From Candidatus Alcyoniella australis (GTDB taxonomy: Bacteria > Lernaellota > Lernaellaia > JAVCCG01 > Alcyoniellaceae): 64,000 nt of DNA. The position numbers were made by a program, and so were the translations under genes. Positions 9,206-18,406 of the stretch are shown piece by piece. The stretch covers positions 7,939 through 71,938 of the forward strand of contig JAVCCG010000059.1 of NCBI GenBank assembly GCA_030765605.1, in the 5' to 3' direction. Position 1 is the first letter of the stretch. Each line of letters opens with the position of its first letter. The notes below the pieces were generated by a model that had not been told where the DNA came from, did no database searches, and worked only from the letters and a program-made list of their open reading frames with translations.

Positions 9206-12200
9206 TCAGAGGCCGGCCCTCAACATGCGGCAGGTAAAGTGGAAAACGCTGCCCTGGCCCGGATTGCTCTCGAGCCAGATGGCGCCGCCCATCAACTGCA
9301 CCAGTTCGCGAGCGATCGTCAGGCCGATCCCCGTGCCCTCGTATTCGCGGGTCATCGAATCGTCGACCTGATAAAAGGATTGGAAAATGTATTCGTGCTG
9401 GTCCTGCGCGATGCCGATCCCCGTATCGCGCACGCTGAAGTGCAGTTCCTGCTTGCCATCGTCGACCCCGCCGAGCCGGACCTCGACATCCACCGAACCC
9501 CTGGAGGTGAATTTGATCGCGTTGTCCACGAGGTTGTTGAGCACCCGTTCGACGAACAACGGATCGCCGTGAACCAGGTGCGGTACGTCCGCGCCGATCG
9601 AGCTGCTGAAGTCCAATCCCTTGATCCGCGCCCGCATCTCGAACCCCTTGAACAGTCGATGGAGCACATTGATCAGTTCGAAGTCGATCGGCTTGGGCTC
9701 GATCCTGCCGGCCTCGAAGCTGGCCATGTCGAGCACCCGTTCGGTCATATCCAGCAGGGTCTCGCCGTTAATTTTGATCTGATCCAGATATTTTTGCCGA
9801 TCCTCGGCCGGCATCGCGGGCATCATCGCCAGCAGCGAGCTGAAGCCGATGATCGCGTTGAGCGGAGTGCGGAACTCGTGGCTCATGTTGCCCAGGAAAC
9901 GCCCCTTGAGCAGTTCGGCCTCCTGCGCTTTGCGCAACGAATTTTGCAGCTCCTGCCCGGCCCGTTTGAGCTTCGTAATGTCGTGGGAGAAAATCGCCAC
10001 CCTGCCGACCGCGCCGTGCGCGTCCATCACCGGATAGAAGGTGTTTTCGAACGTGCCGCAAGGGCCGTTTTCCTCGATGACCTGCGGTTCGCCGCTCGAG
10101 AGCGCCTTGTTCACCATTTTGCGTCTGCCCTTTGCGACCTCGCCGTGCAACAGTTCGTATAGCGATAAACCGGCTAGCTCCTCGCCGGGATGCTCCACGT
10201 GGGCGGCAAAGACCTTGTTGTGGGCGATGATCCGACCGTCGGCGTCGATCAACAGCGCCTGCTCGGAGGTGGCGTTGATCAGCGTCCGAGCGATCTGTTC
10301 ACTCTGCCTAAGTTCATCGGAAACCCGCCTGCGCTCGCTGATGTCGCGGGTCATTCCCAGCACGCCCACCGGCTCGCCCAGAGCGTTGCGCAGGAAAGTA
10401 TTGCGCGACTCGATCCACACGTGGTTGCCGTCGCTCTTGATCGCCTCGGCCTCGATTACCGTCGGCTCGCCGATCCGCCTCTGGCCGCCGCGCTCCCGCT
10501 CCATCTCCGCACGCTGCTTCTCCATTACGAATTCGAAGGATTCGGCGGTCAGCAGATCGGCCATCGAGATCTCTATCGCCTCCTCGGGCGTGTAGCCGAC
10601 CAGCTTGCTGATCGAGGGGCTGACGTAGGTAAATTTAAGGTCCAAATTGGTGGTCCAAATCACGTCGGTCACGTTGTCGGCAAGCAAACGGTAGCGTTTC
10701 TCGCTGGCGCGGATTGATTGCTCGGCGTTTTTAAGTACCGTGACGTCGCGCGCCACAGCCTGGAATCCCTTGATGCGGCCTTCGACCATCGTCAGCTGTA
10801 CGTTCTGGCCGATCCACATCTCGCGTCCGTCCTTGGTCAGGATCGGGAATTCGTAGTAGGTCGTGGAAATGCGCTTGCGTAACTGTCGCCGGTAGAATTG
10901 GTCGGTCTGCTTGCGCGCATCGGACCGCACCAGGTCGAGGTAGTTCTTGCCGATCAGCTCGTCCAGGGCGTAGCCGGTCAGGCGCTCGGAAACCTTGTTG
11001 ACGTAGGTGAAGCGGCCCCACTCGTCGGTCTGGTAGATGATGTCCTGTAGGCTCTCGACCAGTCCGCGGTAGCGGTCCTCGCTCTCGCGCAGGGCCTCCT
11101 CGGTCCGGCGGCGGTCGGTGACGTCGATCAGTTGCGCGATATATCCCCCCTCGAACGCTGAAATGCGCAGGTCGACCAGCTTAGTCGATCCGTCTCGGCA
11201 GGCGATGTTGCATTCGACCCGCTCTTTGCTGCCGCCCTCGAGCAGCTGCTGAACCTTGCCGACCACCCAATTGCGGTAGGCCTCGTCCGGGTAGAGCTTG
11301 GCGTTCCAATCCTCGACGTCGACGAGCTCCTCGCACTTATAGCCAGTGAGCTCGCAATGGGCCGGGTTGCAGGAGATGACTCTGCCGTCCTGGGCCGCCA
11401 CAACCGTGGGGATCGGGCTTTGCGAGACCGCAGCCACCAGCTGCTCCTCTTGCTGCCGCCGCTCGGTGACGTCCTCGGTATGGACCATCACCATATCCGG
11501 CGGCACCTTGGCGTAGATTACCGACAGCCGCCGGGTCAGTCCGGTCGATTTATAGGTATATTCCATCTCGCGCTTGATCGTACGGTTCTGGGCGAGGCAG
11601 GCGTGCATCTCCCGCACCAGCTCGGGCAGATCCTCGTAGAGCTTGTCGGCGGTGATTCCGATGTACTCGGCGATCTTGCCCTGCGTCGCCTCACGGGCGG
11701 CCTCGTTGAAGTCGGTCAGCACGAACTCATCGCCGGCCCAGCGCCAGGTGAAGGTGGGCAGGGGCAGCGAATTGTAGATCCGCCGCATCCGCTGTTCGTT
11801 GAGCCGCAGCTGTTCCCGGGCCTGTTTCTGCTCGGTGATGTCGCGCACCGTGGCCTGCACCACTTTACCGTCGCGTAGCGTCAGCGCGGTCAACCAGACC
11901 TCGGCGTCGAAAATCTCGCCGTTTTTTCGCTGGTGGGTCCACTCGAACTTGGCCTGTCCTTTTTCCCGGGCCTGCTCGATGTACAAGTTGGCCGCGGTCA
12001 ACGAATCACGGCCGTCCGGCTGCCTGGGCGGCGAGATCTGCCAGGGAAGCAGCCCGATGAACTGCTGTTTGTCCTCGAATTCGAACATCGCCAGCGTCGC
12101 CGGATTGGCGTCGATGAACTCGGCCCGGCTCAGCAGCATGATCGCGTCGCTGGAATACTTGAAAAGTGCGCGGTAGCGCTCCTCGCTTTCGCTCAACTCC

Positions 12201-13720
12201 TGCTGTGCCCGCTGTTGTTCGGTGACGTCGCGGGCGTTAATCACCAGCCCGCGCACCTGCGGGTTGTCGAGCATGTTTTGCAGCCGGCCGTCGAGGTGAA
12301 TCGTCGAGCCATCCTTGTGGATGAAGCTCAGCTGCACGGGACTCTGGGCTCCGGGCGTCTCAAGCAACCCCTCAAAAATTTTGATCGCCCGCGGCAGATC
12401 GTCGGGGTGCATGAAATCGAATACCTTGAGCCCGACCAGCTCCGCCGGCTCGTAGCCGGTGATGCGCTTGATCGACGCGCTCTCAAAACGGATTGTGCCG
12501 TCGGCGTCGATGATCGTGATCAGGTCGGAGATATTCTCGATCAGCGTGCGGAAGTAATCCTCGCTGCGACGCATCCCCTCCTCGGCCCGCCTACGTTCGG
12601 TGATGTCGCGCGTTACGCCGAGCAGGCCCACCGGCATGCCCTGATCGTCGAGCAGGAAACTGACCTTGAGCTCGACCCAGACCGTGCCGCCGTTCCGGCA
12701 CAACTGTTCCAGCTCGAGCACCCGCGAGATGAACGGCTCAACCCCTTTTTCCATGACCCTTTCCAGGGCCTCTTCCAACGCGTCGAGCGCGATGCGCTTG
12801 GATCCGGGCGTGAAGCGTTCGTCAAGGGTCTGCTCCAGAGCCTGCTCCACCGGGAACCCGCGCAGCTGCTCCACCGACGGGCTGATGTAGGTTATGTTCA
12901 GATCGAGGTCCGAGGTCCAGATCACGTCCCGCACGTTGAGCGCCAACAACCGATACAGCTCCTCGGTCTCCTTTAAGGTGGCGCGCACGCGCTTATGCTC
13001 GCTGACGTCGGTGACTCCGATCAGCATCGTGGGCCGTTGCTGACCGGGGATGATGCTGCCGGTCAGCTCCACTGGAAAACGCGAGCCGTCGGCATGCACG
13101 GCCACGGTCTCGAACAAGCCCATCTCGCGCTCGCCGGACATGTAGCGCTCGTAAGCCTCGAGCATCCGCGGCGCATCTTCAGTATCGATGTAGTCGTCGA
13201 AGAACGAACCGATCATCTGTTCCTGGGAATGGCCGATCATCTTGGCCAACTCGGTATTGGCGTAGACGATTTTGCGGTCGCGTAAAAAACAGACGCCGTA
13301 TGTCGACGACTCGGCCAAAGTAGTGTAGGCGCTGTCGGCGAATCCCAGTTCGAGTTCGATCCCTTTGCGTTTGCTGATGTCCCGCGCCAGGCTGATTATC
13401 GTGCCGGACTCGTCCCCGTCGTGATCGATGAGGATCAAAGACCAGTCGACCCAGATCTCGACCCCGGCCTTTGACGCGTGCAGAGCATCGCCGCGCCAGC
13501 CGCCCTGAGACTTGACCGTCGCGAGAATCTCCTGCAGGGACGGCGAGCCGTCCTTGAGCGAGATCAGCTCGAACAGCAATTTTCCTCGGGCCCGGTCAGC
13601 GGGTATTTGATAGATGCGATGGGCGGCGGCGTTCCAACCGATTACGCGCAGGTCGGCATCAACTGTTGCAGCCGCATCATCGAGCAGCTCCAATGCCTGG
13701 ATAACCGACGCATCGTTCAC
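9206..13720 (-). CDS. Multi-PAS sensor histidine kinase
   Basis: This 1504-residue soluble sensor kinase has no membrane segment. About ten PAS domains follow one another, each near 125 residues, several ending in a PAC motif (DVTERR, DITERRRAEE). Then comes a HisKA domain with NMSHEFRTPLN (phospho-acceptor His1281) and a HATPase domain with N-box NNLVDNAIKF (near 1395), G1 DTGIGIA (near 1432) and G2 GTGIGLTIA (near 1462). The start codon is GTG at 13720. There is no receiver domain and no adjacent response-regulator gene, so it is an orphan kinase whose partner lies elsewhere. PAS domains may bind heme, flavin or small ligands; none can be assigned here. Confidence 0.93.
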   Translation of the reverse strand: MNDASVIQALELLDDAAATVDADLRVIGWNAAAHRIYQIPADRARGKLLFELISLKDGSPSLQEILATVKSQGGWRGDALHASKAGVEIWVDWSLILIDHDGDESGTIISLARDISKRKGIELELGFADSAYTTLAESSTYGVCFLRDRKIVYANTELAKMIGHSQEQMIGSFFDDYIDTEDAPRMLEAYERYMSGEREMGLFETVAVHADGSRFPVELTGSIIPGQQRPTMLIGVTDVSEHKRVRATLKETEELYRLLALNVRDVIWTSDLDLNITYISPSVEQLRGFPVEQALEQTLDERFTPGSKRIALDALEEALERVMEKGVEPFISRVLELEQLCRNGGTVWVELKVSFLLDDQGMPVGLLGVTRDITERRRAEEGMRRSEDYFRTLIENISDLITIIDADGTIRFESASIKRITGYEPAELVGLKVFDFMHPDDLPRAIKIFEGLLETPGAQSPVQLSFIHKDGSTIHLDGRLQNMLDNPQVRGLVINARDVTEQQRAQQELSESEERYRALFKYSSDAIMLLSRAEFIDANPATLAMFEFEDKQQFIGLLPWQISPPRQPDGRDSLTAANLYIEQAREKGQAKFEWTHQRKNGEIFDAEVWLTALTLRDGKVVQATVRDITEQKQAREQLRLNEQRMRRIYNSLPLPTFTWRWAGDEFVLTDFNEAAREATQGKIAEYIGITADKLYEDLPELVREMHACLAQNRTIKREMEYTYKSTGLTRRLSVIYAKVPPDMVMVHTEDVTERRQQEEQLVAAVSQSPIPTVVAAQDGRVISCNPAHCELTGYKCEELVDVEDWNAKLYPDEAYRNWVVGKVQQLLEGGSKERVECNIACRDGSTKLVDLRISAFEGGYIAQLIDVTDRRRTEEALRESEDRYRGLVESLQDIIYQTDEWGRFTYVNKVSERLTGYALDELIGKNYLDLVRSDARKQTDQFYRRQLRKRISTTYYEFPILTKDGREMWIGQNVQLTMVEGRIKGFQAVARDVTVLKNAEQSIRASEKRYRLLADNVTDVIWTTNLDLKFTYVSPSISKLVGYTPEEAIEISMADLLTAESFEFVMEKQRAEMERERGGQRRIGEPTVIEAEAIKSDGNHVWIESRNTFLRNALGEPVGVLGMTRDISERRRVSDELRQSEQIARTLINATSEQALLIDADGRIIAHNKVFAAHVEHPGEELAGLSLYELLHGEVAKGRRKMVNKALSSGEPQVIEENGPCGTFENTFYPVMDAHGAVGRVAIFSHDITKLKRAGQELQNSLRKAQEAELLKGRFLGNMSHEFRTPLNAIIGFSSLLAMMPAMPAEDRQKYLDQIKINGETLLDMTERVLDMASFEAGRIEPKPIDFELINVLHRLFKGFEMRARIKGLDFSSSIGADVPHLVHGDPLFVERVLNNLVDNAIKFTSRGSVDVEVRLGGVDDGKQELHFSVRDTGIGIAQDQHEYIFQSFYQVDDSMTREYEGTGIGLTIARELVQLMGGAIWLESNPGQGSVFHFTCRMLRAGL

Positions 13721-17207: not shown

Positions 17208-17240
17208 AAAAAAAAGCCCGCCGGCTGTCTGCCGGCGGGC
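17208..17240 (-). terminator. Intrinsic terminator (attenuator 3:4 hairpin)
   Basis: On the minus strand GCCCGCCGGC (17240-17231), loop AGACA and GCCGGCGGGC (17225-17216) form a perfect 10-bp stem followed by eight U residues (17215-17208). It lies between a leader peptide and the nitroreductase start, so it can end the transcript early. It is one of the strongest intrinsic terminators in the window. Confidence 0.9.
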
Positions 17241-17294
17241 TGTACGTGCAATTGCTTTATCAGTGCGAACTACACGGACCCGCCTCCCGAGGCG
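17231..17294 (-). promoter_or_regulatory. Attenuator pairing regions 1, 2 and 3
   Basis: Region 1 (CGCCTC, 17294-17289) begins at the last base of the fourth consecutive Ile codon and can pair with region 2 (GAGGCG, 17286-17281) around a small loop. Region 2, extended to GGCGGG (17284-17279), can instead pair with CCCGCC (17239-17234) in the 5' arm of the terminator. A ribosome stalled on the Ile codons would cover region 1, free region 2 to pair with region 3, and prevent termination. This is the classical amino-acid attenuation geometry, deduced from the sequence. Confidence 0.7.
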
Positions 17295-17359
17295 ATAATA
17301 ATGATCGCGCTTGGGGGGCCGAACTTATCGGCCGAGGTGGTGATCCGGGTTGTTCTCAT
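17270..17359 (-). CDS. Thr/Ile-rich attenuator leader peptide (29 aa)
   Basis: ATG at 17359 is preceded by AAGGA at a spacing of 5, and the frame ends at TAG (17272-17270). The peptide starts MRTTRITTSADKFG, continues PPSA and then four consecutive Ile codons (ATC ATT ATT ATC), and ends with ASGGGSV. Clusters of regulatory amino-acid codons just before a hairpin and intrinsic terminator are the mark of leader peptides such as ThrL and IlvL. Four Thr codons lie near the start and five Ile codons occur in total. The stop lies 30 bases before the terminator stem. It is expected to sense charged tRNA-Ile, and perhaps tRNA-Thr, and is probably not functional as a protein. Confidence 0.75.
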   Translation of the reverse strand: MRTTRITTSADKFGPPSAIIIIASGGGSV

Positions 17360-17551: not shown

Positions 17552-18406
17552 ATGACAAAGTTAATATCGCAACACTACCTGCTGTTGACCGGCTTGGTGC
17601 TGATCGTTGCGCTTGTAGCGGCGGCCTTTGCCGGAATCGAGGATCAACGGCCGCAAGGGCTGAACCTGGAACACGAGGCAACTATGGACTCACAGGCCAA
17701 TTCGCGGGGCTCGGCGGAACTTCCGCCCATCGACCAATCGCGACCGCAGAACACTCAGATCGCCACCTTCGCCCTCGGCTGATTTTGGGGACCCGACTCC
17801 CGGTTCGGGAGTGAGGCAGGCGTAATCAGCACGCGGGTGGGCTATGCCGGCGGCTCCAAGGCCGATCCGACGTATCGCAGCCTGGGCGATCATACCGAGT
17901 CGATCCAGATCGAGTTCGACCCACAGCGCATCAGCTTTGACGAGCTGTTGCAGATCTTCTGGTCGATGCACAATCCAACCAGCCGCTCGTGGTTTACTCA
18001 GTACAAGACGATTCTGTTCGTACAAAACGACGAGCAGTTCGCCGCGGCCCAACGTTCCAAGGCCGCGCTGGAGGAGGCTCTGGGCCACAAGGTACGCACC
18101 GAAATTCGCCAGCTCGATCGCTTTTATCAGGCCGAGGATTATCACCAGAAATACAAGCTGCAACAGGACAGCGCGTTGATGGGTCAGATCAGCGACAAGT
18201 ACCAGACCGTTCAGCAGTTCGTCGACTCGACCTTGGCTGCGCGACTCAACGGCTACGTGGGCGGCAACGGTTCGACCGTAACCGCGCAGCGCGAGATCGA
18301 GCTCTACGACCTATCTCCGGCAGCCCGTGCGCGGCTCGAGTCGATCTTGGGAATGCAGATCGCGCCGCAGCCCAACGTCTGTCCGGTAAGCGGCGTGGGC
18401 CACTAA
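17552..18406 (+). CDS. msrA: Exported peptide-methionine (S)-S-oxide reductase A with predicted selenocysteine at UGA (codon 77)
   Basis: The frame opens at ATG 17552 with a hydrophobic signal or anchor segment (about residues 9-27), meets TGA at 17780-17782, and stays open to 18406 (284 residues with readthrough). Around the TGA the translation is TFALG-U-FWGPDSRF, so the TGA replaces the catalytic Cys of the MsrA motif GCFWG. The downstream part is unmistakably MsrA: TRVGYAGG, HNPTS, QYKTILF, and FYQAEDYHQKY with its conserved residues. A 7-bp hairpin with a GGU-type loop starts 14 bases after the TGA, as in bacterial SECIS elements. Conventional gene calling would split this into a 76-aa fragment and a truncated MsrA. 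It would repair oxidised methionine outside the cytoplasm. Selenocysteine is inferred; a nonsense mutation is the alternative. Confidence 0.85.
17780..17812 (+). promoter_or_regulatory. Predicted bacterial SECIS element with its UGA codon
   Basis: Downstream of the UGA (17780-17782), ACTCCCG (17796-17802) and CGGGAGT (17806-17812) form a perfect 7-bp stem. The apical loop is GTT, or GGTTC if the closing pair opens. Bacterial SECIS hairpins that bind SelB carry a G and U in a short apical loop roughly 16-37 bases after the UGA, and this one fits. The hairpin lies within the coding sequence, as is usual in bacteria. Confidence 0.75.

Follow-up and report, generated by a model that had tools for sequence, protein, structure and literature searches.

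Gene content of the msrA locus

The window, that is, the whole 64,000-nucleotide stretch of Candidatus Alcyoniella australis DNA analysed here, carries a predicted selenoprotein gene of the methionine sulfoxide reductase A (MsrA) family with the following features.

17552-18406, plus strand: predicted msrA selenoprotein gene, 284 residues with selenocysteine (Sec) 77 and a TAA stop (PF01625, PF20939, best PDB match)
17552-17632, plus strand: predicted N-terminal hydrophobic signal/anchor, residues 1-27 (hydropathy, predicted helix 2-27)
17684-17686, plus strand: alternative internal ATG with GAGG upstream, a start that would yield a cytosolic form (sequence)
17762-18163, plus strand: MsrA catalytic domain, residues 71-204 (profile match, predicted structure)
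17780-17782, plus strand: TGA codon, predicted Sec77 in the GUFWG catalytic motif (MsrA alignment, TGA in other loci)
17796-17812, plus strand: apical hairpin of a predicted bacterial SECIS, ACUCCCG GUU CGGGAGU (folding, covariation, absence in Cys genes)
18164-18355, plus strand: C-terminal helical domain of the Clostridium oremlandii type, about residues 205-268 (profile match, predicted structure)
18380-18382, plus strand: tail cysteine C277 (VCPVSGVGH), the sole Cys in the protein and proposed resolving Cys (sequence)

The msrA gene is flanked by two minus-strand genes, one for a nitroreductase and, on the opposite side, one for an M28 peptidase; no operon partner or reductant was found among these neighbours. 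Divergent from msrA is an ORF of 29 amino acids (17270-17359, minus strand; MRTTRITTSADKFGPPSAIIIIASGGGSV), for which 21 genomes yielded no convincing relatives; a strong terminator-like hairpin follows it (17215-17241, minus strand). The window also holds a SAM riboswitch (RF00162, 33505-33616, minus strand, 86.3 bits) and a histidine kinase of 1504 amino acids with about eight PAS domains (9206-13720, minus strand).

An in-frame TGA at the catalytic codon

Translation of the frame from 17552 to 18406 gave a single internal stop, the TGA at 17780-17782 (codon 77). A first, sequence-only reading had placed this codon at the catalytic Cys of MsrA, and the profile searches bear this out: the PF01625 match spans the TGA, running from residue 71 to residue 206 (E 3.8e-41, 141 bits; curated cut-off 23.7 bits), and the frame continues as MsrA to 18406. 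TIGR00401 was matched at 125 bits against a cut-off of 108. MsrA activity on methionine-S-sulfoxide is predicted for the product, whose gene is the sole msrA found in the source genome. The product also matched NF041383 weakly (VPGUxxT thioredoxin-like selenoprotein type 2; profile positions 140-253, window 17552-18403), which suggests an MsrA-like part within that family.

Absence of SelB or tRNA-Sec had been named as one finding that would speak against Sec. The source genome, with a completeness of 98%, encodes both SelB (356 bits) and a tRNA-Sec with anticodon TCA (76 bits), together with SelA (580 bits) and SelD (386 bits), so that the complete set sought is present. The SelD gene (L049, G000:C133:56714-57634, minus strand) likewise contains an in-frame TGA, within SHGAG-U-ACK, an independent sign that the organism decodes UGA as Sec.

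A conserved SECIS-like hairpin downstream of the TGA

The sequence-only reading had further described a 7-bp hairpin at 17796-17812 with a GGU-type loop at bacterial SECIS distance, and each of these elements was recovered. The arms (17796-17802 and 17806-17812) form 7 bp around the loop GUU with a GGUUC apex (-9.8 kcal/mol), and the loop starts 20 nt from the TGA; stem, loop and spacing fall within the published bSECIS limits (PMC13188914). Taken alone the hairpin is modest, since one of equal quality is found at 5% of the codon positions in genes of this kind, and its fold z-score is -1.8. Its significance comes from conservation in TGA genes and not in Cys genes. A SECIS-like hairpin at an MFE of -7.5 kcal/mol or lower was present in 13 of 15 TGA genes as against 1 of 18 Cys genes; helix pairing in the TGA genes reached 87.6%, with compensatory changes in three of the seven pairs, and was 25% in the Cys genes of this subfamily. 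The codons for the residues that follow Sec are also the ones that encode the hairpin; protein sequence at this point is therefore probably under constraint from the RNA element. These residues are mostly DSRFGS in Sec proteins and often DAQFGA in Cys proteins.

Distribution of TGA and Cys codons among relatives

A search for relatives with either Cys or Sec at codon 77 had been suggested as a check, and both were found. This codon is TGA in a further 18 loci, all from diverse bacteria, namely L053, L054 and L077 (Desulfobacterales/Desulfobulbaceae), L012, L060, L081-L085, L087, L098-L100 and L106-L109. A Cys codon, TGC or TGT, was found instead in Halorubrum, Haloplanus, a Thermoplasmata archaeon and two bacterial genomes, G002 and G265, of which G002 belongs to the same class as the source organism. 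No residue other than Sec or Cys was seen at the catalytic position in this subfamily. MsrA of the Clostridium oremlandii type was present in 10 of 386 sampled genomes (eight with TGA, two with Cys). tRNA-Sec was detected in 12 of the 13 TGA genomes tested versus one of five Cys genomes (G002); the TGA-bearing MAG in which it was not found, L054, is perhaps incomplete. The subfamily tree is too poorly resolved for Sec/Cys exchanges to be counted. No relatives were found in the viral contigs searched; on plasmids, most of the matches were MsrAs of archaea or cyanobacteria, with a query coverage no higher than 71%.

A degenerate frame downstream of the TGA in close relatives had been named as the other finding that would speak against Sec. 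Most relatives have intact frames, while L077 and L087 lose theirs further downstream and are probably decayed copies or assembly errors. One Desulfobacterales MAG carries two Sec-MsrA copies, L053 and L077, the latter with its frame lost after the active site. Another genome, G308, also has two Sec-MsrA genes, one lipoprotein-like (L085) and one without an anchor (L098).

The Cys relatives lie one base away at codon 77, and the TGA might accordingly be a TGC or TGT codon that was mutated in a dead gene or read wrongly. Such an origin is next to impossible to reconcile with the recurrence of TGA at 18 further loci in distant lineages, with downstream frames that are mostly intact, with hairpin covariation confined to TGA genes and with the full Sec machinery of the genome. 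TGA codon reassignment does occur in some bacteria, so that a suppressor or variant code could insert Cys or Trp instead; this is very improbable in a genome that encodes tRNA-Sec, SelA, SelB and SelD, the last with a Sec-type TGA of its own. Conservation and the Sec machinery led us to reject a pseudogene, a sequencing error and codon reassignment. Decoding of codon 77 as Sec, as originally proposed, agrees with the machinery, the conserved TGA and the hairpin alike, and those of the originally proposed checks that were run all favoured it.

Predicted fold and assignment to the Clostridium oremlandii type

The best PDB sequence match was the selenoprotein MsrA of Clostridium (Alkaliphilus) oremlandii (CoMsrA; E 6e-55), and the closest solved structures were all of this protein (PDB entries 4LWJ, 4LWK, 4LWL, 4LWM and 4U66). 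The predicted structure, in which pLDDT exceeds 90 across almost the whole of both the catalytic and the helical domain, superimposed on 4LWJ with a TM score of 0.90 by target. The PF20939 match to the helical domain (22.9 bits) is just under the cut-off of 23.7, and both sequence and predicted fold align to CoMsrA across this domain. The Gly-rich loop before QYR is indeed shortened, as the first reading had it; its description as an unusual subtype did not hold, since the loop is shared with CoMsrA and is thus not unusual within this selenoprotein type. We assign the product of 17552-18406 to the Sec-MsrAs of the Clostridium oremlandii type with a probability of about 95%. Sequence comparison establishes the family, the Sec codon, the Sec machinery and the conservation of the SECIS.

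Putative N-terminal anchor and tail cysteine

The proposed signal or anchor segment was recovered as a hydrophobic stretch (KD 2.87 over 17 residues) and includes a possible signal peptidase site, AFA|G. Hydrophobic N-termini occur in 15 of 22 subfamily members, including the Cys-MsrA from the class of the source organism, and those of L060 and L085 are lipoprotein-like. The MsrA thus seems to be exported from the cytoplasm, a part of the first reading that is favoured by the segment and its recurrence and qualified by the internal start. Translation from ATG 17684, which has GAGG upstream, would give a cytosolic Sec-MsrA recycled by glutaredoxin with no resolving Cys, in the manner of CoMsrA, a Cys-free enzyme whose reductant is glutaredoxin (PMC4333827). 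We regard this form as unlikely, though well ahead of the readings rejected above, because the start at 17552 has a GAGG-like site of its own and encodes a classic signal/anchor, and because hydrophobic N-termini recur in the subfamily, same-class Cys-MsrA included.

Of the anchored proteins, 13 of 15 have an extra Cys that is not part of the membrane segment, versus one of seven unanchored ones (L098), these being raw counts uncorrected for shared ancestry. The extra Cys lies in the C-terminal tail in the window protein, L012, L084, L099 and L100, in the linker that follows the anchor in L082 and L106-L109, and in the core in L060, L085 and L011; the anchored L081 and L083 have none. Nine of the ten tail or linker Cys share the setting C-[PAD]-[VIL]-[PS]. 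C277 may be a resolving cysteine. Its tail is disordered in the predicted structure (pLDDT about 40), so the model does not support C277 being within reach of Sec77.

In the mechanism we propose, UGA codon 77 would be read as Sec via SelB, tRNA-Sec and the downstream SECIS hairpin, and the N-terminal segment would export or anchor the enzyme at the outer face of the inner membrane. Sec77 would attack methionine-S-sulfoxide, releasing methionine and becoming a selenenic acid; C277 would then form a selenenylsulfide with Sec77 outside the cytoplasm, which an external thiol reductant would open. As a whole, this exported, tail-Cys mechanism is tentative, with chances somewhat short of even. We hold equally cautiously that the exported, membrane-anchored Sec-MsrAs are a variant of their own, whose one tail or linker Cys, mostly in a C-P/A-V/I/L-P setting, resolves the catalytic Sec via a selenenylsulfide and was gained at differing positions in separate lineages.

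These loci are a well-supported addition to the Sec-MsrAs and come from little-studied bacterial lineages; standard gene callers may cut such genes short or assign them a wrong start. The loci also suggest selenium-based repair of oxidised methionine beyond the cytoplasm, where glutaredoxin with glutathione, the known reductant of this type, may be unavailable; the recurring extra Cys offers a testable answer to how an exported Sec-MsrA would be recycled.

Comparison with known MsrA enzymes

Reviews (PMC13188914) and the Global Ocean Sampling selenoproteome (PMC2398784) list Sec-MsrA as a known family; the bacterial selenoprotein MsrAs they describe share the catalytic Sec in GUFWG, and the passages found mention neither localisation nor a tail Cys. 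The Cys relatives from Halorubrum, the Thermoplasmata archaeon and G002 share the subfamily and the catalytic position but have a TGC/TGT codon and no SECIS hairpin. MsrAs of the 2-Cys and 3-Cys types (E. coli, M. tuberculosis), whose resolving cysteines are C-terminal, likewise combine a catalytic residue with Cys in the C-terminal part; however, they lack the helical domain, after which the tail of the window protein comes.

The closest characterised enzyme is CoMsrA, a native selenoprotein with 20-fold the activity of its own Cys form, which has zero Cys and is recycled via glutaredoxin (PMC4333827; PMC4479559). The two proteins are 46% identical in structural alignment and have in common the GUFWGPD active site, the shortened loop before QY and the C-terminal helical domain. 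CoMsrA has 209 residues with neither an N-terminal extension nor Cys (PMC4333827), whereas the window protein has a hydrophobic N-terminus and a tail Cys. The 1-Cys type is defined by Sec with no further Cys, and the window protein departs from it at C277; because of this residue we regard it as a variant of the Clostridium oremlandii type rather than the identical enzyme. It is thus a predicted member of a known selenoprotein family, in which the novelty relative to the characterised enzyme is the N-terminal hydrophobic segment, a putative export signal or anchor, together with C277.
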